The notes under the pieces are model-generated. The model saw nothing but the letters and a program-made list of their open reading frames with translations, searched no databases and was not told the DNA's origin. A program made the translations under genes and the position numbers. This document shows positions 11,441-41,249 of a stretch of 58,306 nt of DNA, piece by piece. Origin of the DNA: a virus; IMG/VR virus record IMGVR_UViG_3300005841_000038, positions 1 through 58,306 of that record. The stretch is one strand, 5' to 3'. Position 1 is the stretch's first letter. Every line of letters begins with the position of its first letter.

Positions 11441-12980
11441 TTTTGACGAGCTCGATGCCAAGGAGCGCAGGCTCCTTGCCGAGCTTATGCAACGGAGCTT
11501 TCGCGATTTCGCGGAGTTCTTTTGGCCGCAGCTCACCAACCTGCCATGGCCCGAGAACACCGCGACGCAGGCGCTGTGTGCGGCTCTACAGGCGGTTGCG
11601 GATGGTCGGATCTGGCGGCTGCTCGTTGCGATTGCACCAGGTATCGGCAAGAGCTCGATGCTCGCGCTTTATTCGGCGTGGCGGTTTGCCCGGCGCGGCG
11701 ACTGGCGCGGTCTGCACGGCATGGCGGCGGCCAACGATGCCAACCGCGAGAGCGCACGCGTTCGCCGTCTCGTTACGAGCGATGACTTCGTGTGGCTATT
11801 CCCGCATGTCCAGCTCGCCGACGACGAGCAGACCATCCAAGCATGGGCGACCTCAACTGGTGGGCGCTACTTCGCGGTGGGTCGCGATTCGGCCGTCACC
11901 AGCAAGCGCGTTCTCGAGCTCGTGATCGACGATCCGATGACCGCGGCTGACCGTCGTAGCAAGGCTGCGCGTGACGAGGTGTGGACGTGGCTCGATGAGT
12001 CGCTGACATCTCGTCTCGACGGTGATCGGGCACCCATGATCATCGTGGCGCAGCGGCTCGATCGCGATGACGTACATGCTCGCTGTCGGGCGAGCGGGCA
12101 GCCGTGGTGCATGCTCGAGCCGGCGGCGGAGCGCGATGGCCGCGGCTTGCAGCTGTTTGATCACGCAGGCGAGCTCGTCTGGGAGGATCCGCGGCAGCCC
12201 GGGGAGCTCATCGCAACACAAATGCTCTCGCATGAAAAGCTCGCCGGTCTCTCGCGCTCGGTGCGCGTCACGCAGTTTCAACAGCGCCCCGAGGAGGATG
12301 CTGGCGGTGGCACGATCGCGCGCGATGCGTGGCGGTTCCATGCACCCGCCGGTGCAAATCCGAATGCGTCACGTCCCGATGGCTGCGCCAAGCCGTACGA
12401 GTCACCCACGGTGGTCACGCCGTCGTCGTTTGCGGCAATCGTGATCTCCGTGGATCCGACATTCGGCGGCACTTCGAACGAAAACGATTTCTGTTCGATC
12501 CAGGTCTGGGGGCTTGCGCGCGTCAAGGCGTCGACGTTGCTGATTCCCAACCTTGTCGGGGATGCCACCGTGAACGCCTACTACCTGCTCGCGCGCTGGC
12601 ACGAGAGAGCGAAACAGCTCGTCCAGCGAGATGCGATCAGGGAGATGCGGAAGCGGTTTCCGCGTTCAACGATCGTGCTTGAGTTGACCGCGGGTGGTCG
12701 CGGCATTGATGAGATCTTCGAGGCTGAGGGCATCAGGAACGTAGAAGGCGAGACGCCGACGACCGCAAAGGCAGCGCGCCTCGATAACGTGTCGCCCGAG
12801 ATCGAGCAGGGGTTGGCGTTTTTGCCGATCGGCATGGCGGACCTGCAGGGCTTCGTGGACGAGCTCGCCGGGATGACCGTGCACGATGACGATATGGACG
12901 CATGCTCGCAGGCAATTCATTGGCTCAAGGTCAAGGCGCCACCCGATGCCCGGTCCCGCTGGAAAGTGCTGAGCTCGTAA
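11418..12980 (+). CDS. terL: Terminase large subunit
   Basis: Protein of 520 residues from ATG 11418. Packaging ATPase: Walker A APGIGKSS near residue 73, Walker B LELVIDDPMT near 168. RNase-H-like nuclease: ISVDPTFGG near 345, VLELTAGGRGIDEI near 422, and DDDMDACSQAIHW near 490 supply the acidic residues. It cuts and pumps concatemeric DNA into proheads through the portal encoded next. Length is normal for the family. Whether it packages by headful or at specific sites cannot be read from sequence. Confidence 0.92.
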   Translation: MVALPSIDFDELDAKERRLLAELMQRSFRDFAEFFWPQLTNLPWPENTATQALCAALQAVADGRIWRLLVAIAPGIGKSSMLALYSAWRFARRGDWRGLHGMAAANDANRESARVRRLVTSDDFVWLFPHVQLADDEQTIQAWATSTGGRYFAVGRDSAVTSKRVLELVIDDPMTAADRRSKAARDEVWTWLDESLTSRLDGDRAPMIIVAQRLDRDDVHARCRASGQPWCMLEPAAERDGRGLQLFDHAGELVWEDPRQPGELIATQMLSHEKLAGLSRSVRVTQFQQRPEEDAGGGTIARDAWRFHAPAGANPNASRPDGCAKPYESPTVVTPSSFAAIVISVDPTFGGTSNENDFCSIQVWGLARVKASTLLIPNLVGDATVNAYYLLARWHERAKQLVQRDAIREMRKRFPRSTIVLELTAGGRGIDEIFEAEGIRNVEGETPTTAKAARLDNVSPEIEQGLAFLPIGMADLQGFVDELAGMTVHDDDMDACSQAIHWLKVKAPPDARSRWKVLSS

Positions 12981-12982
12981 TG

Positions 12983-13015
12983 CTGTCCCGCTCATCGGGC
13001 GCGCCCGCACGCTGC
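12983..13015 (+). promoter_or_regulatory. Late promoter candidate 1 (before portal)
   Basis: TAATGCTGTCC with CTGTCC at 12983-12988, an 18-bp spacer, then GCACGCTGC at 13007-13015. The second box ends four bases before the GTG start at 13020, and there is no ribosome binding site. It is member one of a six-copy motif found in the gaps of the structural and lysis region. Confidence 0.55.
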
Positions 13016-13019
13016 GTGC

Positions 13020-14558
13020 GTGGCCGACGAACCGAGTAACGAGCGAACGGCGAATGGACGGTTTGCTCCGGGTAATTCCGGTCGGAAACGGTCAAAGCAT
13101 CGGCGCGAAGAGCGGCGCGATGGCTTCGTCAATGTGTTCCTGGGGCACGGCACCGAGCGCGATCGCGCAACCGCTACGCACCACTTCACGAATGCGGTTC
13201 TCGACTTCGAGGCGATCGATCTGCGGCGTGGCAACTGGCTGGCCAAGCGGATTGTCGAGATGTTGCCAGCGGATGCGTTTCGTCGCGGCTACGATCTCAA
13301 GCTCGACGACAAGGAAACCGCCGAGGAGATCCAGGGCGCGCTCGAGGAGCTCGACCTCGACGCCAAGATGGTTGCCGCGTGCCAGATGGAGCGCTGCTGC
13401 GGTGGCGCGGCGCTGTTCCCGGTGCTCGATGGCGCGCAGGGCGAGCTCGCCGCGCCGCTTGACGATACCCGCATCACCGCGGTGCGCGCGCTGCATCTCT
13501 ACGAGCCGCGCGAGCTCTACCCGGCGAGCTGGTACACCGACATCACGAATCCCAAGTTCGGTCTGCCCGAGACCTACCGGCTCGATCCGCTGTCGGGCGG
13601 CGCGCCGATCGCGGTAGCTCGGCCGATCATTCACGAGTCCCGGATGGCGATCTTCCCGGGCATCCGGGTCACACGCGAACCGCTGCACGGTCAGCGTTGG
13701 GGCTGGGGCGACAACGTGCTCACGCCGGTCAACGACGTGATCCAAAACTTCGGCCTCACGTGGGGCTCGGTCGCGGCGCTGCTTCACGACTTCGCGCAAG
13801 GCGTGATCAAGCTCGACCAGTTGATCGAGATGCTCAAGGAGGACGACGGCGAGAAGCTCGTGCAGAAGCGGCTCGCGGTGATGGATATGGCGCGGTCGAG
13901 CTTGCGCGCGATGGTGCTCGACAAGAACGATGAGTTCTCGCGGACGACCACGCCGGTGTCCGGGCTCGCCGAGCTCGTCATTCAGCTGTCCGAGATGGTC
14001 TCGGCTTCCGCTGACACGCCGCGCACGCGGCTATTCGGCACGAGCCCGGCTGGACTCAATGCGACCGGCAAGAGCGACGATGATGGCTGGAACGATCGCG
14101 TCAACGCCGAGCAGGCGCGCCGAGAGTGCCCGCTCGAGTTTCTGATCGGCCTGGTCATCAAGTCGAGCGAGGGTCCGACGGGTGGCAAGGAGCCCGATCT
14201 GTGGAGCGTGCAATGGCGTCCGCTCGATGACCCGGACGAGAAGCAGATCGCCGAGACCCGCAAGCTCAACGCCGAGGCGGACAAGATCTGGTTCGAGATG
14301 GGCGCGGTGTCGAGCGACGACGTCGCTAGATCGCACTGGGGCGGCGACACCTACTCGGCGGATCTCACGGTCGACTTCAAGGCGCGTGAGGAGCAGAAGA
14401 AAATCGACGAGGAGCAGGCGAAACTGCTTGATGCCCAGGCGCTCGCCGCGATGGGCCGGCAGCCGCCCAACGGGGCCAACGGCACCAACGGTAAGCAGCC
14501 ACCGAATGGTGCGAACGGCGCCAACGGTAAGCCGGCCCCGGCGCCGACGGAGCCGTAA
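13020..14558 (+). CDS. Portal protein (DUF1073 / phage_portal_3 type)
   Basis: Protein of 512 residues from GTG 13020. It matches the DUF1073 portal family: IDLRRGNWLAKRIVEMLPADAFR near the start, RWGWGDNVLTPVNDVIQN in the middle, and the diagnostic RLFGTSPAGLNATGKSDDDGW. It forms the dodecameric ring through which DNA enters and to which the tail joins. The C-terminus ends in Asn/Gly-rich repeats (GANGTNGKQPPNGANGANGK), probably a flexible tail. No Acb1 fusion, which some DUF1073 portals carry, is seen. Confidence 0.85.
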   Translation: MADEPSNERTANGRFAPGNSGRKRSKHRREERRDGFVNVFLGHGTERDRATATHHFTNAVLDFEAIDLRRGNWLAKRIVEMLPADAFRRGYDLKLDDKETAEEIQGALEELDLDAKMVAACQMERCCGGAALFPVLDGAQGELAAPLDDTRITAVRALHLYEPRELYPASWYTDITNPKFGLPETYRLDPLSGGAPIAVARPIIHESRMAIFPGIRVTREPLHGQRWGWGDNVLTPVNDVIQNFGLTWGSVAALLHDFAQGVIKLDQLIEMLKEDDGEKLVQKRLAVMDMARSSLRAMVLDKNDEFSRTTTPVSGLAELVIQLSEMVSASADTPRTRLFGTSPAGLNATGKSDDDGWNDRVNAEQARRECPLEFLIGLVIKSSEGPTGGKEPDLWSVQWRPLDDPDEKQIAETRKLNAEADKIWFEMGAVSSDDVARSHWGGDTYSADLTVDFKAREEQKKIDEEQAKLLDAQALAAMGRQPPNGANGTNGKQPPNGANGANGKPAPAPTEP

Positions 14559-17030
14559 GTGCACGCGGCCGCGCATGTGGTTGCGCGCGTCCAGGCGCAC
14601 AACGCGCTCCGCGCGGTGCTCGGCCGGCGCAAGCGGCTCGGCAGGATGCCGCGGCAACAGCCGCCGCTCGCCATCGAGGCAGCGTATGCGCGCGACCTCG
14701 TCGCGATCGTCAACGTCACCCGGCCGCTGTTCGATCGGCTGATCGATCGGTTGCCGGAGCTCCTGCACGGCGCTCACGAGGCGCGCGGCATCCGCCAGGA
14801 CGAGGGCGAGACGCAGCGGCTCCGCGCGGTGTTCGATCAGGCTGGCAAGCGGCTCGAGGGCGCGCTGCGCGTCGGCAACCTTGAGGATCTCGCGCGTCGC
14901 CATGCGCACGCGACGAGCGCGTTTCAGCGTGGCCAGCTCGCGCGCCAGGTGCAGGCAGCGCTCGGCATCGACATCGCGACGCACGATCGCCGCGTGCCAG
15001 CGATGATCGATCACTTCGTGCACGAGAACGTCGCGCTCGTCCGCAAGCTCGGCCGGACGTCGCTCGGCGATCTCGAGACGCTCGTTACCCGCGCATTCAG
15101 GACGGGTGGGCGCGCGCAGTCGATCGCCAAGGAGATCGCCGCTCGCTACGGCGTGCACGAACGCCACGCGCGGCTCATCGCCCGCGATCAGATCGGCTCG
15201 CTCAATGGCGCGATCAACGAGGCAAGGCAGCGCGAGCTCGGGCTGACCGAGTGGCGATGGCGCACGGTTCGTGATGAGCGCGTGCGGCCAACCCACCGCG
15301 CTCTCGAGCGCCAGAGCGAGGAGCGGCCATTCTCGGACACCAATCCGGCGCTCGAGGATGGCGTGCCGGTGGTCCCCGGGCAGCCGATCCTTTGCCGCTG
15401 CTATCGCGAGCCGGTGTTCGACTCGCTGCTCGAGACGGTGGCTCAAGCGGAGCCAGCGCCGGGATCGGGGATCTTGCTGCTGCCGCCGCAGCAGCCGCCA
15501 GCCCCGGAGCCACCGGCGCCGGAGTTCACGCCCGAATACCTCGCCGAGCGAGAGCGTATGGCGCAGGCGTCGGCGGTGGCGCGAGAGGTCGCGCAAGAGG
15601 AGCTCGCTGCGTTCGCGGCGCATCAACAGGCGCAGGCTGCCGAGCTCGCTGCCAAGCAAGCCGCGCAGGCCGCGGAGCTCGCCGCGCAAGAGGCGGCCAA
15701 GGCGGCCAAGAAAGCAGCGACGGCCGAGAAAGCGCGCGCGACGAGGGCGGCTAATAAGGCCAAGCGCGAGGCGCAGAAGGTTGCCGAGCAAGCTGCGGCC
15801 GCAGCGGCCAGGCCCGGCGAGGTTCGCTATGCAGCGATCCCGGAACATCACTTCCATGGGTTTCACGGCCGAGGCTTTGTTCAGGATGCGGACGCGATCG
15901 AGGGTGGCTCGGTGCGCGTGGTCCGCGTCAAGGGCGCCGATGGTGACTATTTCGAGGCGGTGTTCAAGGTGACCACGCCGTACGGCGACAAGGCGCGCAG
16001 CTATGGCAGCGAGCAGGCGCATGGCTGGGAGTTCCGCCGGCGCAAGGTCAGCGGTGGCGCGCTCGAGGATCTCAAGCAGACCGAGATCACACCGAACGCG
16101 GCGCGGATTCGTCGTTCTGCTAGCGGTGGCACGGTCGAGATCGGTACCCAGGGCGCGCTCGCCAATCAGGTGCGCATCCGCGCCAAGAGCCTCGGCGAGC
16201 TCGACGCGCAAATGGCAGAGCTCTCGAGACACCTCGGGCTCGAGCTTCACAAGGAGCCGTCGCGGGTGGACATCGAGCTGCAGACCAAGGCCAAGCTCGC
16301 AGCGAAGTTCGATCCCAAGGCGTTCGGCTCGCTGATGACCGGCGTGACGAGTCCCGAGGAGCAGCGTGCAGCGATCGAGCACGTGTTCGATGCCGCGGCC
16401 AAGCAGCATCCGATCATGCTCGATGCGCTCGCCGATGCCGAGGTCCGCGAAGTCTACCCGGGCCATAAGGCGCTCTACAGCGAGTCGCTCGGTAAGCACA
16501 TGGCCAAGCAGTGGGGCTCGATGTATCACGACGGCAATCCGTCGGCGGACATCGCCGCGAAGATCGTTGGCGACACCGGGCTCATGTCTTCGAACCGTCG
16601 CTACAACGGCGGCGTGTTCGTGACCGGCATGTCGACGAGCCGCGACTTCGAGACCGGCGGCGCCGATGGCGTGTTCATGCGCGTGGCCAAGGAGTCAGCG
16701 CTCAAGGGATCCGGCGGGCGATTCCGCGCCGTCATCGATACCGAGCAGGTAATGGGCCGGCTCGATTGGTGGGCGTTCGATCACGACAACTACGGCCGTG
16801 CTGGCTATCGCGATTATCAGAGTCGGTGGTCGATCCCGGCGCAGCTCGCCGAGACTCGGGCCAGCGGCGGTAACGAGGTGATGGCCCCGCATGGTGTACC
16901 CCCAAGTGCGTTCAAGCGGTTCATCGTCGAGGACGAGAGCTATCGGCAGCGGGTCCTGGACGAGCTCCGCAAGATGGGGGTTACCAAGATCAACGGTAAG
17001 CCCGCGGAACAGTTCGTCACCACGAGGTGA
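14559..17030 (+). CDS. Mu gpF-like head morphogenesis protein with large C-terminal domain
   Basis: Protein of 823 residues from GTG 14559. Residues about 150-290 are the gpF/SPP1-gp7 minor head domain (RARLIARDQIGSLNGAINEA-type helix, WRWRTVRDERVRPTHRAL, and the closing PGQPILCRCY). Residues 310-430 are an Ala/Lys-rich coiled coil after a Pro linker. The remaining 390 residues are extra; the last 150 (RRYNGGVFVTGMSTSRDF ... GGNEVMAPHGVPPSAFKRF) resemble an ADP-ribosyltransferase layout (STS and a late Glu). ART domains fused to gpF-like proteins are known in phages and can be injected effectors. That assignment is tentative. Confidence 0.75.
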   Translation: MHAAAHVVARVQAHNALRAVLGRRKRLGRMPRQQPPLAIEAAYARDLVAIVNVTRPLFDRLIDRLPELLHGAHEARGIRQDEGETQRLRAVFDQAGKRLEGALRVGNLEDLARRHAHATSAFQRGQLARQVQAALGIDIATHDRRVPAMIDHFVHENVALVRKLGRTSLGDLETLVTRAFRTGGRAQSIAKEIAARYGVHERHARLIARDQIGSLNGAINEARQRELGLTEWRWRTVRDERVRPTHRALERQSEERPFSDTNPALEDGVPVVPGQPILCRCYREPVFDSLLETVAQAEPAPGSGILLLPPQQPPAPEPPAPEFTPEYLAERERMAQASAVAREVAQEELAAFAAHQQAQAAELAAKQAAQAAELAAQEAAKAAKKAATAEKARATRAANKAKREAQKVAEQAAAAAARPGEVRYAAIPEHHFHGFHGRGFVQDADAIEGGSVRVVRVKGADGDYFEAVFKVTTPYGDKARSYGSEQAHGWEFRRRKVSGGALEDLKQTEITPNAARIRRSASGGTVEIGTQGALANQVRIRAKSLGELDAQMAELSRHLGLELHKEPSRVDIELQTKAKLAAKFDPKAFGSLMTGVTSPEEQRAAIEHVFDAAAKQHPIMLDALADAEVREVYPGHKALYSESLGKHMAKQWGSMYHDGNPSADIAAKIVGDTGLMSSNRRYNGGVFVTGMSTSRDFETGGADGVFMRVAKESALKGSGGRFRAVIDTEQVMGRLDWWAFDHDNYGRAGYRDYQSRWSIPAQLAETRASGGNEVMAPHGVPPSAFKRFIVEDESYRQRVLDELRKMGVTKINGKPAEQFVTTR

Positions 17031-17041
17031 CCGATTTTCGA

Positions 17042-17070
17042 TTGACAGTGTCAATCACAATTGGTAGGGT
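17042..17070 (+). promoter_or_regulatory. Sigma70 promoter with operator for the moron cassette
   Basis: TTGACA at 17042-17047, a 17-bp spacer, TAGGGT at 17065-17070. Predicted transcription start is 17077, exactly the A of the ATG, so the mRNA would be leaderless. The palindrome TTGACAGTGTCAA (17042-17054) covers the -35 box and matches TTGACGGCGTCAA at 19275. It lets the host RNA polymerase express this cassette from the prophage. Confidence 0.7.
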
Positions 17071-17076
17071 GTTCAT

Positions 17077-18372
17077 ATGACGAACACCGCAGCCGCGATC
17101 ACCCCGCCCTCCCAACCGCTCAGCATCGTCCGCGAGGACAAGGGGGCCATCGGCTTCGACGAGGCTGGCGCGGAGCGCGCTGACAACGACAACGCGCTGC
17201 TCAAGGGTGTGCTCTCGATCGACACGGGAACGACGTTCTTCGCGCACGGCACGGTGCTGATGGATCGCGCAGGCGCCAAGGCGCGCCGGCATCGCGCGGA
17301 GTTTCTCAAGCTGCCGACGGTCGAGACCGGGATGGCGTCGCTCATCGACGCGGTGCAAGCGGAGGATCGTCGGGACCACACGGTCAAGCTCGGCGAGGGC
17401 TACGTCAATCTCAGCGGCAAGCTATGCGGCTGGCGCGACCGCGATGGCGCGTCCATCGTCGATCTCGTTCCGTCCGAGACTGGCTGGCAGCGGCTCGCGT
17501 CGTTCGCACCGTCGGGCGTCAAGACGGGCCTGCGCACCAACGTCAACACGTGGCTGCCGCGCCGGCGTGAGGACGACGCGGTACTGCGCACGCGCAAGGG
17601 CGCAGGCGACGATCGCGAGCTGTTCGCAGTGGTGTCCACCGGCTACGTGCCGTTTGACCTTGACGCGATCGCGGCGTGCGTGGCCGAGCACATGCCGTCC
17701 GATGCACGCTGCCGCGTCCGCTACGACGGCGGCCGGGCTCGCATCGACGTCGTGCTCCACAACCCGCATCACTTCGGGCCGCGTGGCGACGCGGGCACGG
17801 TCGGCGAGCTCCATCGGCTCGCGCTGCGCATCACGACCGCGGACGACGGCACGGCTGGCTTCCGGCTGACCTGGATGGCGGAGCGTATCCGCTGCATCAA
17901 CCTCACGATCCTCAAGGGCAAGAACACGATGTTCGCGGCGCGCCATACCCGCGAGGATCTCGCCGAGATGGTCGAGACCGCGCTCGCCGCGCAGGGCGAG
18001 GTTGCTGAGTCGTTCTCCGCTCGCTGGCGCACGGCCTGGACGGAGTACTACGTCGACCAGGGCTCCAAGCAAAAGCTCGAGGCTGACGAGGTGCTCAAGC
18101 GCATTGCCTACCACGGCACGGTGCGCATCCCCGGCATCCGTGGCGCGGCGGCGACGTACGAGGCGCTCCGGGCGGCGTGGGACACCGAGCCGGGCGATTC
18201 GCGCGCCGCGATCCACAACGCGATCACCCGCGCTGCGCACGAGGCTCCGACCACGTGGCGCGCGTCGGCATGGGCGGACGACGAGACCGAGGAGCAGGCC
18301 AGCCAGCTGCTCTACGCGAAAAACCTCGTGCTCGACCTGCCCGAGGACAAGCGCGAGCAGCTCGGCTGGTAG
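17077..18372 (+). CDS. DUF932-family protein
   Basis: Protein of 431 residues from ATG 17077 with no ribosome binding site. It resembles DUF932 phage/plasmid-like proteins (ELFAVVSTGYVPFDLDAIAACVAEHM, then RLTWMAERIRCINLTILKGKNTMFAARHT). Function is unknown; members are carried by plasmids and phages as accessory genes. It heads a cassette (17.0-20.1 kb) that splits the head genes and has its own sigma70 promoter and operator, the hallmark of a moron. Confidence 0.75.
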   Translation: MTNTAAAITPPSQPLSIVREDKGAIGFDEAGAERADNDNALLKGVLSIDTGTTFFAHGTVLMDRAGAKARRHRAEFLKLPTVETGMASLIDAVQAEDRRDHTVKLGEGYVNLSGKLCGWRDRDGASIVDLVPSETGWQRLASFAPSGVKTGLRTNVNTWLPRRREDDAVLRTRKGAGDDRELFAVVSTGYVPFDLDAIAACVAEHMPSDARCRVRYDGGRARIDVVLHNPHHFGPRGDAGTVGELHRLALRITTADDGTAGFRLTWMAERIRCINLTILKGKNTMFAARHTREDLAEMVETALAAQGEVAESFSARWRTAWTEYYVDQGSKQKLEADEVLKRIAYHGTVRIPGIRGAAATYEALRAAWDTEPGDSRAAIHNAITRAAHEAPTTWRASAWADDETEEQASQLLYAKNLVLDLPEDKREQLGW

Positions 18373-18444
18373 CTCTGCGCTGACGAGCCCGGAAGGGCGA
18401 AACGCCGCGAGGCGTCCGCAGATAACTTGCGAAAGGAGCAAAAC

Positions 18445-18663
18445 GTGAAAACCACCACCACCCTGTTCGTGTTCGAGGACGGCGCTCGCGAGGTTACGGT
18501 CGACCTCGCCAAGATCGCGCTCATGGCCAAGCGCTACGATGGCAGTTACTGGCTGCGCATGACCGGCGGCGATTCGCTCAACCTCGATGCCGGGGTCGGC
18601 GTCGCGATCCGGACCGCCTGGGTCGCGTTCCAGAGCAAGTTCGATCCGGCCAAGGATCGGTAG
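18445..18663 (+). CDS. Hypothetical cassette protein
   Basis: Protein of 72 residues. GTG 18445 was chosen because AAAGGAG lies six bases upstream. Probably a small beta-sheet fold (TTLFVFEDGAREVTVDLAKI). It is the second gene of the moron cassette. No family is recognised. Confidence 0.55.
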   Translation: MKTTTTLFVFEDGAREVTVDLAKIALMAKRYDGSYWLRMTGGDSLNLDAGVGVAIRTAWVAFQSKFDPAKDR

Positions 18664-18876
18664 ATGAGCGATCTCATCCGCTGCGCGCACTGTGGACATC
18701 GCAAGCGCGAGCACGGCGCCTTCGATAACCCGATCCGGCCGTTCGCGTGCCCTGGCGACAGGGAGCCGAAGTGGCCGAGCTCGATCACCAATGAGCTGCG
18801 AGCCGGCGAGGTTTACGATCGGCGGCTCGTCGAGTTTTGGTCGGAGCGCACCACGAGCTTCAAGGAGAGGCGGTAG
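18664..18876 (+). CDS. Small Cys/His protein
   Basis: Protein of 70 residues from ATG 18664 immediately after the previous stop. C-A-H-C-G-H ... H ... C-P-G is a possible zinc site (LIRCAHCGHRKREHGAF ... FACPGD). Part of the moron cassette; function unknown. Confidence 0.55.
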   Translation: MSDLIRCAHCGHRKREHGAFDNPIRPFACPGDREPKWPSSITNELRAGEVYDRRLVEFWSERTTSFKERR

Positions 18877-18878
18877 TC

Positions 18879-19262: not shown

Positions 19263-19274
19263 CCACGTTGGCCA

Positions 19275-19287
19275 TTGACGGCGTCAA
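19275..19287. promoter_or_regulatory. Operator TTGACGGCGTCAA
   Basis: 13-bp palindrome upstream of the ribbon-helix-helix-like gene at 19309. It matches the palindrome at 17042-17054 in 11 of 13 positions (consensus TTGACRGYGTCAA). TTGGCC at 19268 and TAAATC at 19291 with 17 bp between could be the promoter it controls. Confidence 0.55.
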
Positions 19288-19308
19288 CGGTAAATCGGAG
19301 GATGCCTC

Positions 19309-19494
19309 ATGCCTGCAAAGAAGCCCGCTCGAGGGCGGCCACGCCTGCACCCGGAGGCGATGGACACGACCGTTCAGATCCGTTGCACGTCCGATGACCG
19401 CGAGCGTTGGATCGAGCTGGCCGAGGAGCTCGGGCTCGCGGTTGGCCCGTGGCTCCGCATGCTGGCGATGCGCGAGGTCAAGAAAGCGCGCTAG
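19309..19494 (+). CDS. Ribbon-helix-helix-like regulator candidate
   Basis: Protein of 61 residues from ATG 19309 with GGAGG at 19297-19301. A basic N-terminal arm (KKPARGRPRLHPEA) is followed by a strand-helix-helix pattern (DTTVQIRCTSDDRERWIELAEELGL). This is the size and shape of dimeric RHH repressors. It lies just downstream of TTGACGGCGTCAA, so autoregulation and control of 17077 through the twin operator are plausible. Confidence 0.6.
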   Translation: MPAKKPARGRPRLHPEAMDTTVQIRCTSDDRERWIELAEELGLAVGPWLRMLAMREVKKAR

Positions 19495-19814: not shown

Positions 19815-19853
19815 CTCGAGCCGGCGCTCGAGGGCCGCTGCTACGGTCCTCGC

Positions 19854-20144
19854 ATGACCGACGATTCCGACGCGCCGCACGTGCCGAGTGAAGAGCGCAA
19901 GACCGACGAGCTCGACCCGCGCGACGTCCGGGTATCGTGGCCGGTCGCGCTCGCGCACCTCGAACAGTTGGGCGACTGGACCGTGCACGGGATGCGGCTC
20001 GGTGCGCTCGCGACGCTGCGGCAGCTCATCGAGTATGCGGCGCATCCAGGCGCGAGCGGGCTTGTCGTCGATCGGATGCGCGACATCATCGAAGCGCTGG
20101 CGCGAATGCCCTGGGATCACGACGAGGGCGAGACCGCCGCATAA
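19854..20144 (+). CDS. Hypothetical cassette protein
   Basis: Protein of 96 residues from ATG 19854. It is acidic, and mostly helical after residue 30 (ALAHLEQLGDWTVHGMRLGALATLRQLIEYA). A CTCGAG-6-CTCGAG hairpin lies in the 39-bp gap before it. Last gene before the capsid protease; its stop TAA begins late promoter candidate 2. Confidence 0.55.
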   Translation: MTDDSDAPHVPSEERKTDELDPRDVRVSWPVALAHLEQLGDWTVHGMRLGALATLRQLIEYAAHPGASGLVVDRMRDIIEALARMPWDHDEGETAA

Positions 20145-20146
20145 TC

Positions 20147-20179
20147 CTGTCCGCCGATTTGGGTGCTCGTGCAGCGTTG
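20147..20179 (+). promoter_or_regulatory. Late promoter candidate 2 (before protease/scaffold)
   Basis: TAATCCTGTCC with CTGTCC at 20147-20152, an 18-bp spacer, then GCAGCGTTG at 20171-20179, nine bases before ATG 20189. No ribosome binding site is present in front of that ATG. Same motif as candidates 1 and 3-6. Confidence 0.55.
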
Positions 20180-20188
20180 CCCTCGTAG

Positions 20189-26101: not shown

Positions 26102-26112
26102 CGGACGTAATC

Positions 26113-26145
26113 CTGTCCGCGGTAGCCGCGGTGTCCTTAGCGTGC
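26113..26145 (+). promoter_or_regulatory. Late promoter candidate 3 (before tail terminator/sheath)
   Basis: TAATCCTGTCC with CTGTCC at 26113-26118, an 18-bp spacer containing a CCGCGG-TAG-CCGCGG hairpin, then TTAGCGTGC at 26137-26145, four bases before GTG 26150. No ribosome binding site. Here the TAAT is not a stop codon of the preceding gene, so its conservation is not due to coding. Confidence 0.6.
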
Positions 26146-26149
26146 TTGC

Positions 26150-26728
26150 GTGGCAGCGATTGCCTGGATCACCATCGAGAACGCAATCCACGCGTGGCTC
26201 GTCGCCGCGACGGGGCTCGCGGCCGGCCAGGTGATCTGGAGCTTGCCCGAGGAGGGCGCCCCTCGCCCCGAACGGCCCTACATCACGGTGCTGATCAATG
26301 AGATCGATCAGTTCGGTCATGATTGGCTCGTCAAGGATGCGGCGCCGGATCCCGAGGAGGGCGCGGAGATCCGTGTACGCGCACGGGGTCAACGCACGGC
26401 GAGGATCCATCTCCGCTGCTTCGGCGTTGATGGCTCGGGTAGCGATGCCGCGAAGATCCTTGTTGACGCGATCGCTGGTCTGCCACTGTCCACCTACGAT
26501 CTCGACCTGGCGGGCGTCGGCATCGCGGACACCGAGGCGGTGCAGACCGTGCCAGGCCGACGTGGCGGCATTCTCGAGCCGCAAGCCACGACGGCAGTGA
26601 ATATCCATCTCGCTTCCGAAGTGGAGGCGCGGTTGCCCGAGGTCGCGCACATCCAGATCCGGATCAACGAGGAGTCGATCGGTGAGGTCGGCGAGCTCTG
26701 GGTTCCGGATCCGCCGCCCGATTCCTGA
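26150..26728 (+). CDS. Tail terminator / neck protein (LIC_12616-like)
   Basis: Protein of 192 residues from GTG 26150. The opening IENAIHAWLVAATGLAAGQVIW and PYITVLINEI fit phage neck-terminator proteins that sit upstream of DUF3383 sheath genes. It likely caps the tail tube and joins it to the neck. Confidence 0.7.
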   Translation: MAAIAWITIENAIHAWLVAATGLAAGQVIWSLPEEGAPRPERPYITVLINEIDQFGHDWLVKDAAPDPEEGAEIRVRARGQRTARIHLRCFGVDGSGSDAAKILVDAIAGLPLSTYDLDLAGVGIADTEAVQTVPGRRGGILEPQATTAVNIHLASEVEARLPEVAHIQIRINEESIGEVGELWVPDPPPDS

Positions 26729-26739: not shown

Positions 26740-28119
26740 ATGTCCATCGACCAGCATGTACCGGTAACCGTCAGCGTGAACAACGCAGGGATCGCGAAAC
26801 AGGGCTTCGGCCTGACTGCGATCCTCACGTACAAGACGGTCTTTCCGGAGCTGTCGCGCGCGTACGCGAAAGTGTCCGACGCGGTCGCGGACGGCTTTGC
26901 GACGGATTCTCCGGAGGGCCGCGCGCTCGCGCGCATCCTCGGTCAGTCGCCGCATCCGGTACAGGTCAAGATGATCCGCGGCACGCGGATCCCGACGCAG
27001 CGCTACGAGCTCGGCGTGCTCGATGTCGTCGAGGGCTTCACGTACAAGATCAACGTCAAGGGCGAGGGCTTCTCGGACACGTTGCTCTCGTACACCGCGC
27101 TTGAGGGCGACGACGAGGACGATATCGTAGCGGCGCTCGTGACGCAGGCGCAGGCGGTCGAGGATCGCAACTACACCGCGAGCGCGGTGGTCGACGCGTC
27201 GGGCCCCGACACGCTGCGCTTCCTCGGCAATGCGCCCGGCGATTGGTTCTCGCTGCAGGTATTCGACACGCTCATGCTGTCGATCGTTCAGAACCACGAC
27301 GATCCGGGCATCGCCGATGACCTCGCCGACGTCATGCTGTACGACCCGGATTGGTACTACCTCGAGACCAACTTCAACAGCTCGGCGACGGTGCTCGAGG
27401 CGGCGGACTTCATCGAGTCGGCCGGGTTCAAGGCGTACATCGTCGATCTCGTCGACAGCGAGATCGAGAATAGCGCGCCCGGCGGCGACGACATCGCATC
27501 GCAGCTCGACGCGCTCGGCTACAAGCGGACGCTCTACGCGTATCACCGCAAGCCGAACGAGATGATGGCCGCCGGCTGGGAGGGGCGCATCTCGCCGCTC
27601 GCTGTCGGTACATGGGATGCCGCGTACAAGCCGATCACCGGCGTGACCGCAGACTCGTTCACTGCAACGCAGATGAACAACATGGACGGCAAGAAGTGCT
27701 CCTATTACAAGGCCGAGGCCGGTCGGAGCTTCACTTGGAACGGCGCCATCGCGAACACCGATTACGGGTTTTTCGACAACACGGTGTCGCTCGACTTCGT
27801 CGTCGACGACATCCAAAAGTCGGTACTCGCCGCGCGGCTCGCGCTCAACAAGGTGGCGTACACCGACGAAGACATCCAGGGCGTCATCAAGGGTGCCGTC
27901 GAGGGCGCTGTCGATCGCGCGAAGTCTGAAGCGCACAAGATCATCGCGCTCGGTATGCCGGGGGACGAGGACGACCCGGAGCCAACGGTGTTCTTCCCGC
28001 GCGTCAAGGATATCGATCCTGGCGCTCGCGCGCTGCGCACGATCCCTGACGGGACCGTCTCATTCCGGCTGCAGGGCGCTGTCAACACGGTGCCTATCAA
28101 TCTCACCGTGACGTTCTAG
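26740..28119 (+). CDS. Contractile tail sheath protein (DUF3383-like)
   Basis: Protein of 459 residues from ATG 26740 with AAGGAG upstream. DUF3383-type sheath: V-x-V-x-V-N-N-A-G-I-A start, a mid region with DIVAALVTQAQAVEDRNYTAS, KRTLYAYHRKPNEMMAAGWEGRI, and an ending V-N-T-V-P-I-N-L-T-V-T-F. Its presence defines a contractile (myovirus) tail. It is the largest product of the tail block apart from the tape measure and fibres. Confidence 0.88.
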   Translation: MSIDQHVPVTVSVNNAGIAKQGFGLTAILTYKTVFPELSRAYAKVSDAVADGFATDSPEGRALARILGQSPHPVQVKMIRGTRIPTQRYELGVLDVVEGFTYKINVKGEGFSDTLLSYTALEGDDEDDIVAALVTQAQAVEDRNYTASAVVDASGPDTLRFLGNAPGDWFSLQVFDTLMLSIVQNHDDPGIADDLADVMLYDPDWYYLETNFNSSATVLEAADFIESAGFKAYIVDLVDSEIENSAPGGDDIASQLDALGYKRTLYAYHRKPNEMMAAGWEGRISPLAVGTWDAAYKPITGVTADSFTATQMNNMDGKKCSYYKAEAGRSFTWNGAIANTDYGFFDNTVSLDFVVDDIQKSVLAARLALNKVAYTDEDIQGVIKGAVEGAVDRAKSEAHKIIALGMPGDEDDPEPTVFFPRVKDIDPGARALRTIPDGTVSFRLQGAVNTVPINLTVTF

Positions 28120-33020: not shown

Positions 33021-33733
33021 GCGATGAGCCACGCGATCCCGGGCTCGAGGATATCTTCACGCTGGCCGTCGAGACGGCGCTCGCCAGCGCGCGCGTCATG
33101 CTGCCCGGCCGGGTGGTCTCGTACGACGCCGTGAAGCAGAGCGCATCGATCCAGCTCCTGCTCAAGGAGTCTCACCTCGCCGAGGACGATACGGTCACCG
33201 TCGAGGCGGTTGCCGAGCTGCAGGATGTGCCGGTGCGCCATATCGGCGGCGCGACCGGACGCATCACGGTTCCGGTCGTGAAGGGCGATACCGGAATGGT
33301 GATCTTCGCGAGCTCGTCGATCGCGCGTTGGAAGCTGATCGGCGGGCTCATCGACCCGGGCGACGCTCGCAAGCATCACATCAGCGATTGCGTGTTCGAG
33401 CCGGGCCTGCACGACTTCGCGCATGTGCCGACCACGGCGCCCACGGACGCGATTGTGACGCATGGCGAGACCCGGGTGGGCGGGCCGGTGGGCACCGAGA
33501 AGATGCTCCGCGCTGAGAGCTACCGGACGGCCGAGGATGCGCTCATCAATGCGATGACGGTCGCGTTTAACGCGATCCAGATTTATGCGGTGGCGATCAA
33601 GCCCGTTGCCGACCCCTCGAACGCGGCGACGCCTGCGCTGGTGACCGCGATGACCACGACCTGGACGGCTGCAGTAGCCGCCTTCACCGGCGCCGCAGCG
33701 ACGTATCTGGCTCAAAAGGGTCGCGTGCTGTAA
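33017..33733 (+). CDS. Gp138-type membrane-puncturing spike
   Basis: Protein of 238 residues from ATG 33017. The N-terminal OB-like segment (ARVMLPGRVVSYDAVKQSASIQLLL ... LQDVPVRHIGGATGRITVPV ... GDTGMVIFAS) is the Gp138 signature. The rest is Ala/Thr-rich. It is the tail tip that pierces the outer membrane; a Gram-negative host is implied. Confidence 0.8.
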   Translation: MSDEPRDPGLEDIFTLAVETALASARVMLPGRVVSYDAVKQSASIQLLLKESHLAEDDTVTVEAVAELQDVPVRHIGGATGRITVPVVKGDTGMVIFASSSIARWKLIGGLIDPGDARKHHISDCVFEPGLHDFAHVPTTAPTDAIVTHGETRVGGPVGTEKMLRAESYRTAEDALINAMTVAFNAIQIYAVAIKPVADPSNAATPALVTAMTTTWTAAVAAFTGAAATYLAQKGRVL

Positions 33734-33737
33734 TTCC

Positions 33738-33770
33738 CTGTCCACAGTTTGAGGCCGGCTCTTACCGTGG
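33738..33770 (+). promoter_or_regulatory. Late promoter candidate 4 (before baseplate wedge)
   Basis: TAATTCCCTGTCC with CTGTCC at 33738-33743, an 18-bp spacer, then TTACCGTGG at 33762-33770, six bases before ATG 33777. No ribosome binding site. Same bipartite motif as the others. Confidence 0.6.
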
Positions 33771-33776
33771 CAGCTA

Positions 33777-34175
33777 ATGGCGCTGCTCTCGACGGACCGC
33801 CTGGATCGCCGCCTCGATGCGAGCGGTGACATCTACGTCGGTCCGAACGGCAGCGAGGGGATCTCCGGGATCGATGGCGTCGCGCAGCTCATCGTCATCG
33901 CGCTCCGTCTGTTCAAGGAAGAGTGGTTTCTGAACCTGGACAAGGGGATGCCCTGGTACCAGGAGATCCTCGGCGAGAAGTTCAACGAGCAGCTCGTGCG
34001 CAAGCGCGTAGCCGAGGTCGTGCTCGCGGTGCCCGCAGTGACCGGCATCAGCTCGCTCTCGCTCATTTTCACGTCGGCGATCCGGCGGCTCGAGATCAAC
34101 CTCACCGTGCGGACACTGTTCGGTGACACGCCGCCCGACTTCATCCAGTTCGTGATCGGGGGAGGCAATGGCTGA
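33777..34175 (+). CDS. Baseplate wedge / sheath initiator (gp25-like)
   Basis: Protein of 132 residues from ATG 33777. DIYVGPNGSEGISGIDGVAQLI, LFKEEWFLNLDKGMPWYQEILG and IRRLEINLTVRT match gp25/W-like proteins that nucleate the sheath. Followed by the J-like gene as usual. Confidence 0.8.
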   Translation: MALLSTDRLDRRLDASGDIYVGPNGSEGISGIDGVAQLIVIALRLFKEEWFLNLDKGMPWYQEILGEKFNEQLVRKRVAEVVLAVPAVTGISSLSLIFTSAIRRLEINLTVRTLFGDTPPDFIQFVIGGGNG

Positions 34176-35511: not shown

Positions 35512-35520
35512 GGAGGCAGC

Positions 35521-37728: not shown

Positions 37729-38702
37729 TGCTGCTCGGTGAAACAGATCCAGATGCTCGCCACGTCGGACCGCTGCACGCGGTCGATGGTGATGGCAATC
37801 CCGTGCTCGGCGAGGACTTCTCGGGGGCGGGCGAGCTCGAGATCAAGGTGGCCGGCGGTGCGTTCGGGGCTGCCCTCGGGACCATCGTCGAGACGGGGAG
37901 CGGTTACTACTACTACCTGGCGACCGCAGCCGACGCGCTCGTCGGGCCCTGGATCGAAATCAAGATCGCCGGCGTGTGTCAGGAGTTCACGCTTCGCGAG
38001 GACGTTGCCGCGCAGCTTGGCGGCATCATCGCAGGCGAGACCGATCCCGACCTGCTTGTGATCGGCTCGCTCCGCTTCATCGATGCTGATGGCAATCCGC
38101 TCGGTGCGGCCGACATCGCCGCGGCGACCAAAGAGGTCAGCATCAACGGTGCTGCGCTCGGCGCGCCCGCGGGCACGTTCTCGTGCGTCGATGACGGCTA
38201 TCTCGATTACATCGCCGATCCGACCGAAGTCACCGATCGTGGTTGGGTTGCTGTTCGGATCTCCGGCACGTGTCAGGAGATCATGTTCCGCGAAGACATC
38301 GTCGTAGAGGCCAAGAACGCGACGGCGCCCGAGATCGAGATCGTCTCGCCGACCCCAGGCGTTGCACCAGGGCAGCCGGGCGGCTTTCCTGCTTCGCGCC
38401 GCGCGGCTGAGCGAACGCCGATCGTCCTGCGCATCACGGATGACGCGCCTGGCCTCGGCTACATCGAGGTGGCCGTGCGCTTCTATGGCTCGCAGGCCGA
38501 GCTCGATGCCGATGAGAACGGCGTCGAGGAAACGGTGTTTCGCAAGGGCCAGTTCCGCGGCAAGCACGTCGCGAGCTCGTACGTCGAAGACATCGACGAC
38601 GGCGTCGAGCTCCACGTGTTCCGTGATGGCGGATGGCTCGGACGGTTCATCAAGTTCGCCGTCGACCCGATCGACGAGGATGGCAATCTGACCAATGCCT
38701 GA
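37728..38702 (+). CDS. Tail-associated protein with tandem repeat
   Basis: Protein of 324 residues from ATG 37728 (TAATG overlap). Two copies of an about 95-residue unit: GETDPDARHVGPLHAVDGDG ... QEFTLREDV, and GETDPDLLVIGSLRFIDADG ... QEIMFREDI. A C-terminal fibronectin-like stretch follows (APGLGYIEVAVRFYGSQAEL). Likely a fibre-attached or baseplate-attached domain set. Confidence 0.65.
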   Translation: MLLGETDPDARHVGPLHAVDGDGNPVLGEDFSGAGELEIKVAGGAFGAALGTIVETGSGYYYYLATAADALVGPWIEIKIAGVCQEFTLREDVAAQLGGIIAGETDPDLLVIGSLRFIDADGNPLGAADIAAATKEVSINGAALGAPAGTFSCVDDGYLDYIADPTEVTDRGWVAVRISGTCQEIMFREDIVVEAKNATAPEIEIVSPTPGVAPGQPGGFPASRRAAERTPIVLRITDDAPGLGYIEVAVRFYGSQAELDADENGVEETVFRKGQFRGKHVASSYVEDIDDGVELHVFRDGGWLGRFIKFAVDPIDEDGNLTNA

Positions 38703-39423
38703 GTATGTCTGGGAGCTCCCACCACTCCTCCCCGAGTCGCCCGAGCCGGCCACCGAGGTCACCGGCATGGCGCGCGCTCATGCCGACGAGGCGGTCGAGC
38801 GGCTCGCGCTGCAGTTCCGCAAGCCGCGCATGATCGCGCTCGTGCGTGCGTACTGCGCGCCCATGCAGGCCCTCGAGCAGGCGTTCGTCGATCTGATCAC
38901 CAAGCGCACCATCGAGGATGCCACCGGCGTGACCCTCGAGCTCCTGGCCAAGCTGGTTGGCCAGCGACTGATCCTCGACCTCGACGAGGACACGCTCCGC
39001 TCGTTCATTCGTGCGCGCATCCGCACCAACCGGTCGAGCGGCATGGGCGATCAGATCCTACGCATTGCGCGGCTCGTGCTCACAGACTACGCCAACCGCG
39101 ACGAAGTCATCGCAGAGGGCACGCTATCGCTCGTAGTAAGCAATCTCGGCACGGCCGGGTATAGCCTTCGGGTCAACGGGATCGATCTGACGTGGGAGCT
39201 CGCTACCGTCCTGGCCGTGGACTTCTTGCGCGTCGCGACCGGCGACGGCATCCGCTCGATCCTGGAGTTCGATGTCCAGCTCGATGACGAATTCGACGCT
39301 CACGACTCGGCATTTACGCTCGACGACGCCTCCGATCCAGGCTCGGTCACGGAGGGCGCCGGGCTTGCTGATGCCAGCGAGGGCGAGGATGTCGGCGGCT
39401 ATCTTGCAGCCGTGATCAGCTAA
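38695..39423 (+). CDS. Baseplate protein (DUF2612-like)
   Basis: Protein of 242 residues from ATG 38695. ALQFRKPRMIALVRAYCAPM, VDLITKRTIEDATGVTLELLAKLVGQRL and FIRARIRTNRSSGMGDQIL match the DUF2612 family that closes the baseplate gene run. The C-terminal 40 residues are acidic and Ser/Gly-rich. Confidence 0.75.
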   Translation: MPEYVWELPPLLPESPEPATEVTGMARAHADEAVERLALQFRKPRMIALVRAYCAPMQALEQAFVDLITKRTIEDATGVTLELLAKLVGQRLILDLDEDTLRSFIRARIRTNRSSGMGDQILRIARLVLTDYANRDEVIAEGTLSLVVSNLGTAGYSLRVNGIDLTWELATVLAVDFLRVATGDGIRSILEFDVQLDDEFDAHDSAFTLDDASDPGSVTEGAGLADASEGEDVGGYLAAVIS

Positions 39424-39425
39424 TC

Positions 39426-39458
39426 CTGTCCCAGCGTTTGGGGCGTCGCACATCATCG
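39426..39458 (+). promoter_or_regulatory. Late promoter candidate 5 (before fibre-like gene)
   Basis: TAATCCTGTCC with CTGTCC at 39426-39431, an 18-bp spacer, then ACATCATCG at 39450-39458, five bases before ATG 39464. The downstream box is the most divergent of the six. Confidence 0.5.
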
Positions 39459-39463
39459 CCACG

Positions 39464-40111
39464 ATGCCGACGAAGCCTGATGATCTGCCGGTATGGGCGA
39501 CCGATGACAGCTACCCAGCTGGCGCGCAGCCGTGGGCCGAGTCGGACACGAAGATCGAACCGCTGTCCGGCAAGCAGGCCGAAGGCTTCGAGCCCCGTGA
39601 GAAGCCTGGCGCTCAAACCCTCAACTGGCTGTTCAACCTGATCTACAAGTGGCTCGCGTGGGCCAACGCGATCCCCGAGACGATCATCGTCCCGCTGATT
39701 CCGAACATCCGTTACGACGAGTTCCCGGACAGCTTGACCGGTCAGATCAACGGCAACGCGAGCGGGATGTTCGAAGTAGAGATCAGCGACACGTACCCGA
39801 CGTGGCAGATCACGCTCTCGCTGCCGATCGGTTCCGAGATCCAAGGCGTGCGCGCCTGGTGGGATACTGGTGCTGCCACTTTCCTAAAGGTGACGCTCGC
39901 GCGCAAGGAGATCCTCGGCATCGGCTACGACGTGATTGCGACGGTCATCGCCGACGGAGTGGGCGGCGTCGAGATGGACGAGGCGACGGGCCTCAGCCAC
40001 GAAGTCGAGAGCGGCTGGCAATACATCATGCTATTCACGCGCGATTCGGGCACAGATCAGATGTTCATCTACAATTCGGAAATCGACATCCTGCGCTATG
40101 CGCACGTCTAG
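39464..40111 (+). CDS. Tail fibre-like protein
   Basis: Protein of 215 residues from ATG 39464. The N-terminal LPVWATDDSYPAGAQPW ... GFEPREKPGAQTLNWLFN is a fibre attachment motif common at tail-fibre N-termini. The rest is a beta-rich domain, too short for a full fibre, so it may be an adaptor or a second small receptor-binding protein. Confidence 0.65.
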   Translation: MPTKPDDLPVWATDDSYPAGAQPWAESDTKIEPLSGKQAEGFEPREKPGAQTLNWLFNLIYKWLAWANAIPETIIVPLIPNIRYDEFPDSLTGQINGNASGMFEVEISDTYPTWQITLSLPIGSEIQGVRAWWDTGAATFLKVTLARKEILGIGYDVIATVIADGVGGVEMDEATGLSHEVESGWQYIMLFTRDSGTDQMFIYNSEIDILRYAHV

Positions 40112-40452
40112 CGAAAGCATATTCCGGTCTGTGGCAGATTGCCGATGATCGTTTTGGTTTGAACAGTCGTGACGCCCAACGGGATGACTGACTTGAATCG
40201 ATCGGGCATCAAGATCCAGATGCCAACGTTTGCGGCGATGGCCGTGGCGAAGTAGAAGTCGACTCGCTCCACGGATGGCTTAGCCCCGAGCATGGGGTTG
40301 TTTTCGAAGGTGCCGCGCCAGCCAACCTCAGCTCGAGAGCGGGTCTGGGCCCAGTCGCACGCGAGGCTCGCGCTGCTGGCGAGCAAGGTTGCCCGGTTGA
40401 CGTGCGTACAGCCAGAGGTCAGTAGCAGCGCGATGACAGCAATTCTCAGCAC
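40108..40452 (-). CDS. Lipoprotein moron (superinfection-exclusion candidate)
   Basis: Protein of 114 residues on the reverse strand inside the rightward late region, from GTG 40452. Signal peptide with lipobox LRIAVIALLLTSGC: lipidated Cys at residue 15. No Asp follows the Cys, so sorting to the outer membrane is likely. The mature part (WRGTFENNPMLGAKPSVERVDFYFATAIAAN) has one hydrophobic stretch. Single reversed lipoprotein genes beside lysis genes often block superinfection; here that is inference. Confidence 0.7.
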   Translation of the reverse strand: MLRIAVIALLLTSGCTHVNRATLLASSASLACDWAQTRSRAEVGWRGTFENNPMLGAKPSVERVDFYFATAIAANVGIWILMPDRFKSVIPLGVTTVQTKTIIGNLPQTGICFR

Positions 40453-40661
40453 ACATAAATGGTAGTCCGTACCAGGAAAGCAGCAATCAGCTAACTATGC
40501 AGGATACCCCGCTGATATCCGCGTAACAGGAAATCTACACACCATAACGAGGTGTCAGAGTATGAATGTAAATGCCAAACATATGGGCTATCTATCGCAG
40601 GCGCGTTGCGGCATCGGTAACCCTGTCCGCGCACTTAGTGCGTCCGTAGCGTGGTAGGGGC
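40453..40661. other. AT-richer intergenic gap (moron / lysis boundary)
   Basis: The 209-bp gap has visibly lower GC than the rest of the window, a mark of the moron boundary. It must contain the promoter for the reversed lipoprotein gene, though I see no clear -35/-10 pair. Late promoter candidate 6 is at its right end. Confidence 0.5.
40623..40654 (+). promoter_or_regulatory. Late promoter candidate 6 (before lysis block)
   Basis: TAACCCTGTCC with CTGTCC at 40623-40628, a 17-bp spacer containing a CGCAC-TTA-GTGCG hairpin, then GTAGCGTGG at 40646-40654, seven bases before ATG 40662. TAAC here is noncoding, so the motif is conserved independent of stop codons. Confidence 0.6.
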
Positions 40662-41249
40662 ATGGCGGACGATCCGAAGCACTCGCGGCAGACCAGCCCT
40701 AGGGGGCTGCCGATCCCGCGCGTGGTCACCGAGAAAGGTTCCGCGCGCGTTGGCGATCGCGATCGCTATCTCCCCAAGACGCCCAGCGGTGGCACGCGGA
40801 CGCATGAGAGCTGGGAGGACGATCACACGCCACCGACCACGGATCCGGCGCTCTACCGTGCCATCCGCACGCTCAAGCATGACCTGCAGGAGCACGCACA
40901 GGAGCTCGGCGAGCTCACGACGCAAGTCGCAGTCATCCACGCGCGAACGGATGAATTCGGCAAGGTCATCGAGCGGCTCGACGAGAAGCAGGACGAGCAG
41001 ACCAACAAGCTCGCCACGATCTCAGGCCAGCTCGGCATCATCATCGACGACCGGCATCGCCATCTCGCGGTGACCGAGACGCGGGCGATCGTTCAGTCGA
41101 CGACCCGCGAGAGCATGGCCGATCGTGTGCTGACGCTCGAGGAGCGCCGGCAGAAATTCTGGTCTCAGGTTTGGGTCAAGGTTGTGGGCGGCGTGTTCTC
41201 GGGCGGCGTGCTTGTTGCGCTCGTTGGTCTCATCGCGAGTAGGTGCTGA
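40662..41249 (+). CDS. Coiled-coil protein with C-terminal TM
   Basis: Protein of 195 residues from ATG 40662. Basic, Pro-rich N-terminus; coiled coil at residues about 65-140 (LKHDLQEHAQELGELTTQVA); one membrane segment at the end (VVGGVFSGGVLVALVGLIASRC). The type with N-in coiled coil and C-terminal anchor and its position suggest a lysis accessory or holin-associated protein. Confidence 0.55.
   Translation: MADDPKHSRQTSPRGLPIPRVVTEKGSARVGDRDRYLPKTPSGGTRTHESWEDDHTPPTTDPALYRAIRTLKHDLQEHAQELGELTTQVAVIHARTDEFGKVIERLDEKQDEQTNKLATISGQLGIIIDDRHRHLAVTETRAIVQSTTRESMADRVLTLEERRQKFWSQVWVKVVGGVFSGGVLVALVGLIASRC

Follow-up and report, generated by a model that had tools for sequence, protein, structure and literature searches.

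In Gram-positive phages, the late regulators of the RinA/ArpU/Ltr group are small proteins encoded beside the terminase genes, and members of the group act mainly at one promoter located before the packaging operon. Gene transfer agents of Rhodobacter and Caulobacter are switched on by GafA and GafYZ, phage-like activators with a sigma-like helix-turn-helix (HTH), of which GafY contacts domains 3–4 of RpoD (PMC9638019, PMC11150451). Here, we analyze a complete IMG/VR virus record, IMGVR_UViG_3300005841_000038 (58,306 bases, 65% GC; hereafter, the window), which derives from a phage of an uncultured soil bacterium. Its gene order, terS, terL, portal, head morphogenesis, protease, capsid, sheath, and baseplate, is that of a contractile-tailed phage, which is probably temperate, judging from a weak integrase match; annotated phages resemble its terL at less than 60% identity only. 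Six gaps in front of late genes carry copies of a two-box motif, which we interpret, with a probability of about 0.56, as late promoters combining a host-type −10 element with an upstream box bound by a phage factor, most likely r4b, a small protein encoded directly before terS.

Geometry and statistics of the six motif copies

The motif consists of TAAY and CTGTCC (box 1), 19 nucleotides (nt; 18 nt in copy 6), YANNNT, a further 6–11 nt, and the start codon, with box 2 comprising YANNNT and the nt before it. As the earlier note had claimed, copies of this layout, all on the plus strand, precede the genes starting at 13020, 20189, 26150, 33777, 39464, and 40662. In copy 1 (12978–13019), TAAT at 12978, CTGTCC at 12983–12988 and CACGCT at 13008–13013 are followed after 6 nt by the GTG of the portal gene (13020), identified by PHROGs and Pfam matches. 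Copy 2 (20142–20188), with TAAT at 20142, CTGTCC at 20147–20152 and CAGCGT at 20172–20177, lies 11 nt from the ATG of the head maturation protease gene (20189). Copy 3 (26108–26149; TAAT at 26108, CTGTCC at 26113–26118, TAGCGT at 26138–26143, 6 nt to the GTG at 26150) precedes the neck/tail terminator (PF23961) and sheath genes, and copy 4 (33731–33776; TAAT at 33731, CTGTCC at 33738–33743, TACCGT at 33763–33768, 8 nt to the ATG at 33777) precedes baseplate genes, recognized by a baseplate wedge match. The last 2 copies are located at 39421–39463 (TAAT at 39421, CTGTCC at 39426–39431, CATCAT at 39451–39456, 7 nt to the ATG at 39464) and 40618–40661 (TAAC at 40618, CTGTCC at 40623–40628, TAGCGT at 40647–40652, 9 nt to the ATG at 40662). 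The gene at 40662 weakly matches a PHROG named hemolysin and is probably a lysis gene.

The distance between CTGTCC and YANNNT is nearly constant across copies 1 to 6 (19, 19, 19, 19, 19, and 18 nt; variance 0.14), whereas that between CTGTCC and the start codon varies (37, 42, 37, 39, 38, and 39 nt; variance 2.9). The first base of YANNNT falls at −12 to −17 from the start codon; YANNNT is present in all 6 copies and TANNNT in 3 of them. From the start of TAA(T/C) to CTGTCC, the distance is 5 nt in 5 copies and 7 nt in copy 4. The TAA of copies 3 and 6 does not serve as stop codon of the upstream gene, as the earlier note had also observed.

The motif as a whole is beyond chance, although its single parts alone are not. 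TAAYNCTGTCC occurs exactly 5 times in the window, each time within a motif copy and on the plus strand, vs no occurrence of the backward pattern. Allowing up to 1 mismatch raises this to 6 matches vs 1.7 expected, a number reached by none of 100 shuffles; these are the same 5 copies and an unrelated minus-strand site at 44556, copy 4 not fitting the spacing. Box 2 was recovered by unsupervised alignment and equalled in none of 400 shuffles. The strict form TAATCCTGTCC-N18/19-YANNNT fits copies 2, 3, and 5, and had no match among 35 genomes from the putative host order (about 263 Mb). When both strands of the window were scanned with a position weight matrix (PWM) derived from the copies, these ranked 1 to 6 (weakest score, 15.8), and no clear seventh copy emerged in the window: the next site, at 28079, scores 13.8, near the random level, at which 3.25 sites scoring 12 or more are expected. 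In leave-one-out scans, copies 2, 3, 4, and 6 remained clear of the background. Scanning the viral_contigs collection for CCTGTCC-N17/18-TTAGCGTG returned 31 stretches with chance-like contexts, and a collection scan for TAATCCTGTCC-N18/19-TANNGTG returned 6, likewise in chance-like contexts and all of 30–46% GC.

A probable host-like −10 box and starts without Shine-Dalgarno sequences

The starts of the 6 genes behind the motif are well fixed, with in-frame stop codons 3–51 nt upstream. None of these genes has a Shine-Dalgarno (SD) sequence, scored as a 4-mer of AGGAGG, vs 22 of the 35 other called late genes (Fisher p = 0.006), a comparison that is approximate because the gene caller favors SD sequences when choosing starts, although the in-frame stops pin those of the motif genes. 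No such 4-mer was found either at alternative in-frame starts within the 150 nt that follow the start codon. In copy 6, GTAGGGGC lies upstream of the ATG, and AGGGG there is a possible weak SD. The earlier note had set the motif genes, most of them without SD, against other gap-preceded late genes with one. The former half holds for all 6 genes, but the latter only for the fraction given above, and the gap-preceded late genes at 17077, 19854, 22936, and 29119 also lack an SD.

The gap before 17077, one of those in the late region without the motif, reads TTGACA-N17-TAGGGT-N6-ATG. The −35 of this leaderless-looking promoter is covered by the first of 2 exact copies of the palindrome TTGACnGnGTCAA (17042–17054 and 19275–19287, both in late-region gaps; 0.01 expected), which is possibly the site of a second regulator. 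Another leaderless-looking start without the motif follows the gap at 19815–19853, which contains CTCGAG-CCGGCG-CTCGAG and has TACGGT 6 nt before the ATG.

The host group was delineated through P0002 (2202–2624, plus strand), a protein of the early region that consists of sigma region 4 only (PF04545, E = 3.3e-7, above the gathering score). Its family was found in 177 stretches of genome_contigs, and the titles of the best 80 (L050–L129) name Myxococcota, Deltaproteobacteria or genera thereof in 75 cases, "Proteobacteria" only in 4, and Comamonas in 1. Judged indirectly, from these relatives, the host is probably a myxobacterium near Kofleriaceae. The proteins encoded by these 80 loci form a mostly myxococcotal family with conserved Cys residues, for which we know of no function.

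Of 20 loci picked by hand from the 80, 6 are titled Kofleriaceae and the remainder Myxococcales, Deltaproteobacteria or similar. Relative to the start codons in these 20 loci, TANNNT has its peak at −15 to −12. At −14 to −11, it precedes 24 of the 196 genes in the picked loci (2 of them with an SD) and 55 of the 596 genes in all 80 loci (5 with an SD). After deduplication, 66 of 588 genes have TANNNT at −15 to −12, and upstream of these 66, TTGAC occurs 8 times vs 1.4 expected and CTCGC likewise 8 times vs 1.5, while CTGTCC-N18/19-YANNNT is found in none of the 588 upstream regions. Seven Myxococcaceae loci, comprising 42 genes of near-duplicate genomes, yielded 4 occurrences at −13 and 6 at −8, which permits no judgment. 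Because TANNNT peaks at a like position in the host group, near-leaderless transcripts are probably ordinary there.

Box 2 is best read as a −10 element. In sigma-70 promoters, the −10 element TANNNT lies some 7 nt upstream of the transcription start, and with YANNNT at its present distance from the start codon, transcription by the host polymerase would begin at that codon or just before it. Conversely, box 1 departs from a sigma-70 −35 element (TTGACA with a spacer of 16–18 nt), all 6 copies having CTGTCC and a spacer of 18–19 nt. The earlier view that the boxes do not resemble sigma-70 sites thus stands for box 1, which is unusual, but not for box 2, which is a −10 of the TANNNT type, as in the host group.

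The candidate reader r4b and competing explanations

Directly 5′ of terS and upstream of all 6 copies lies r4b (10504–10998, plus strand), encoding a small sigma-70 region-4-like protein of 164 residues with conserved Cys residues; its stop codon overlaps the start of terS (ATGAGTGA, 10991–10998), and terS (DUF5681) and terL (10991–12980, plus strand) separate it from copy 1. The r4b protein matches members of the P0002-type Sigma70_r4 family (best E = 4.5e-9, with L083) and aligns with these proteins, Cys residues included. The profile of this family, which matches sigma region 4.2, hit 69 PDB sequences, of which all 60 listed are sigma factors or chimeras of these. In sigma-70, positions of the recognition helix contact the −35. 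This helix reads VTRRGMKYLLQ in r4b vs LTRERIRQVE in the family, departing from the LTRERxRQ of most members, and LTRERVRQ in P0002. The model of r4b has a predicted local distance difference test (pLDDT) score of about 85 for the C-terminal helices and 57 overall, and that of P0002 is poor (pLDDT 50).

We propose that host RNA polymerase with the housekeeping sigma factor would use YANNNT as its −10, so that messages would begin with the start codon or a few nt ahead of it and, being leaderless or nearly so, would need no SD. From about −42 to −32, the element TAAYnCYG(TCC) would replace a normal −35 and make the promoters dependent on a phage factor, most likely r4b, which, once made, would switch on the portal, protease, tail, baseplate, gene-39464, and gene-40662 units. 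The repeat and its geometry, the absent SD sequences, the host-like position of the −10, and the co-occurrence of motif and r4b are observed, whereas the transcription starts, the late timing and the binding of the element by r4b are inferred. One refinement, which we put forward tentatively and regard as doubtful, is a split sigma: the phage-encoded, region-4-only r4b, with its new recognition helix, would stand in for host region 4 at the new −35-like element while region 2 of the host housekeeping sigma still reads the −10. The host polymerase would thereby be directed to the 6 leaderless late promoters and, in a related prophage, also to the gene of the region-4 protein itself.

Relatives of the phage bear on this proposal. 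L158, found in a viral scan with r4b and 2 homologs, has the same order as the window: an r4b homolog (49% identity), terS, terL (26%), portal (43%), head morphogenesis (43%), and protease (52%). In L158, TAATCCCG precedes both portal and protease, the 2 gaps that could be compared; the protease gaps of L158 and the window are equally long, with 29 of 48 positions identical without gaps, a level reached by none of 20,000 shuffles. L158 r4b is itself preceded by TTGACT-N17-TAGCGT-N8-GTG, apparently an ordinary host-type, leaderless-looking promoter. CTGTCC as the core of box 1 was dropped, as L158 and the contig G020:C183 share TAAYnCYG only. A relaxed motif, TAAYnCYG-N21/22-YANNNT-N4-12-start, drawn up after L158 and L049, occurs 5 times in the window, where copy 4 is spaced differently, once each in L158, L049, and G020:C183, and twice in the 80 host-group loci (1.18 Mb). 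It was not found in L008, G019:C327, G022:C49, G020:C288, G2, or G3.

When homologs were sorted by best score, counting as r4b-type those nearer to r4b than to P0002, 4 of the 5 r4b-type contigs (the window, L158, L049, and G020:C183, but not G013:C25) contained the relaxed motif, vs 0 of the 4 contigs in which neither an r4b- nor a P0002-type protein was found (L008, G019:C327, G022:C49, and G020:C288). In G020:C183, scanned after the relaxed form had been fixed, the single occurrence lies exactly before the ATG of the r4b homolog. Because L158 and L049 shaped the relaxed form, the independent tests are only G020:C183, with a positive outcome, and G013:C25, with a negative one. The terL relative closest to the window, L008 (71%), has terL and portal in like order, and its terS is preceded by another gene without detectable similarity to r4b. 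A copy in the L008 portal gap that had seemed degenerate by eye was rejected by the PWM test.

Other searches brought few additions. No relatives were found by a sheath scan or by a terL scan of genome_contigs, nor by a phylum search of 377 genomes among the up to 4 candidates scored in each of the 20 genomes listed. In prophage-like contigs with terL homologs (from G019, G022, and, twice, G020), CTGTCC is absent in the motif layout. The portal relatives L150–L157 are 26–33% identical, and nothing was gained from comparing 7 of the 8 with the window proteins and viewing the portal gap in L150 alone.

Several observations weigh against the promoter proposal with r4b as its reader. The r4b protein has no Pfam match of its own, and its structure search gave no significant hit (best Foldseek E = 1.2, all listed Z below 4). 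The terL of L158 is just 26% identical to that of the window, and its portal copy has CGTGAT at the place of YANNNT, missing the A of the −10. The portal gap of L008 holds no recognizable copy by PWM (3,050 of 5,000 shuffles score as high), and the L049 homolog of gene 39464 (35% identity) has an SD and no motif. G013:C25 (L169, 11 kb) encodes an r4b-type gene and contains TAATCCCG with no −10 behind it and no full motif, and L168 (3.3 kb), with an ambiguous homolog, has no motif. The dependence of the relaxed form on L158 and L049 counts on the same side, as do its occurrence in G020:C436, found by genome search, about 6 kb from a P0002-type gene, and its weak, scattered excess in the 35 genomes when an ATG was demanded within 8 nt (40 vs 20 in the backward control). 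Box 1 in its CTGTCC form is private to this genome and CTGTCC alone is not enriched in the window (24 vs 30 expected); as a common 6-mer, it is present in 5 of 32 gaps, a small open reading frame (ORF) call covering copy 6, and GC-rich 6-mers reach 6. Finally, copies 1 (8.8) and 5 (11.4) sink into the background when left out of the PWM.

The lack of enrichment of CTGTCC alone and the fall of copies 1 and 5 into the background also favor chance, namely that a few TAA stops followed by similar bases had been selected by eye. We nevertheless consider this very improbable, given the shuffles of TAAYNCTGTCC and box 2, the 3 strict copies here vs none in the host-order genomes, and the conserved protease gap of L158. 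Scarcely better placed, and still improbable, is a signal acting in translation or recombination, that is, a ribosome-related or module-border element at gene starts. All copies do lie at gene starts, several of them at borders of functional modules, and the Start-Associated Sequences (SAS) of cluster K mycobacteriophages exemplify phage motifs repeated near start codons (PMC12699233). However, because the box-to-box spacing is fixed while both boxes shift relative to the start codon, a promoter is favored over a translation signal, and box 2 matches the −10 elements of the host group in form and position. As for a recombination linker, the copies are on average 38% identical between the boxes and 47% over 37 nt, which is too low.

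The strongest competitor, although we hold it to be unlikely, retains late promoters but has box 1 bound by another protein: P0002, a host activator or alternative sigma factor, or a phage HTH protein. In favor of this view, Pfam confirms P0002 as a Sigma70_r4 protein of the early region, the phage encodes several HTH proteins, and the co-occurrence with r4b rests on 5 contigs, one of them without the motif. On the other hand, the P0002 family is widespread in Myxococcota and has the standard LTRERxRQ helix, which would suit TTGACA-like sites, and the motif is absent from G2 and G3, which encode P0002 homologs, as well as from the stretches examined around 6 further P0002-type genes (4 of the stretches only 2–3 kb long), although the occurrence in G020:C436 lies near one of these genes. 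A host regulator with its own regulon is countered by the lack of the strict form in the 35 genomes. Two HTH_3 proteins with Sigma70_r4 matches were set aside, the matches being sub-threshold. Among the 64 proteins scanned against Pfam, out of 99 called genes, no phage RNA polymerase or full sigma factor scored above the cut-off; one zinc-ribbon match, at 18664–18876, stayed below threshold.

A phage-specific class of promoters giving leaderless or nearly leaderless transcripts, as envisaged in the earlier note, is the best reading of these data and is partly supported, with the core of box 1 shifted to TAAYnCYG. Relatives of the same gene order lacking the motif had been expected to speak against it, and here the evidence is divided, L008 having no copy and L158 keeping TAATCCCG at both comparable gaps.

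Other features of the window and comparison with known systems

Further features of the window lie outside the proposed promoters. Operator-like CGACTAAT repeats at 1082–1119 and 57558–57565, two of which lie in a 12-nt inverted repeat between two divergent HTH_3 genes, are probable immunity operators. Dense direct and inverted repeats of the GGGAACCAGGAACC type at 5711–5870, at the start of a methyltransferase ORF, are a possible replication origin or regulatory site. A papain-family cysteine protease encoded beside the integrase (43755–44525, minus strand) is a probable cargo gene, and a minus-strand ORF without a Pfam match (40108–40452), which occupies part of a 550-base interval separating late genes, resembles an inserted cargo gene.

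For phages of uncultured Myxococcota, the proposal offers a late-gene switch that can be tested, and because the promoter is short, the candidate reader has 164 residues, and the −10 is of ordinary host type, the system is amenable to reconstruction in a laboratory strain. A replacement of sigma region 4 by r4b, if true, would illustrate how one sigma domain can be detached and redirected. The TANNNT peak further points to leaderless messages as a frequent feature in part of the Myxococcota, with consequences for the annotation of gene starts.

Leaderless genes adjacent to a −10 have reportedly been found in mycobacteria. In Deinococcota, TANNNT directly precedes the ORFs of leaderless genes without a ribosome-binding site (PMC12340547). 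Those promoters are chromosomal, whereas the motif described here has an extra, phage-specific upstream element locked to the −10. Repeated phage-specific late promoter motifs would be shared with phiKZ and AR9, and the AR9 paper describes phage transcripts as often leaderless, with AR9 leaders of 26–491 nt (PMC5312081); the phiKZ and AR9 promoters are, however, read by phage multisubunit RNA polymerases, for which the Pfam scan of the window gave no candidate. The SAS/ESAS of cluster K likewise are conserved motifs near the start codons of many phage genes, but the SAS consensus GGGATAGGAGCCC has an SD-like core and differs from the window motif in sequence and layout (PMC12699233). No description of Myxococcota phage promoters of this kind was found in the literature searched, within a limited collection and set of terms.

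Compared by function alone, r4b resembles the RinA/ArpU/Ltr regulators in being a small candidate regulator adjacent to the terminase genes, and differs in that 6 promoters, from portal onward, would be served. With GafA and GafYZ, again compared by function alone, it would share the switching on of structural operons together with host sigma-70 polymerase at promoters with a degenerate −35 (PMC9638019, PMC11150451). According to the same reports, GafY binds about 120 nt upstream with integration host factor, GafZ binds between −10 and −35, and GafA acts via the omega subunit, whereas here the element abuts the −35 position and 6 promoters would yield leaderless-looking transcripts. In function, the predicted system appears nearest to GafYZ/GafA and the RinA/ArpU group.

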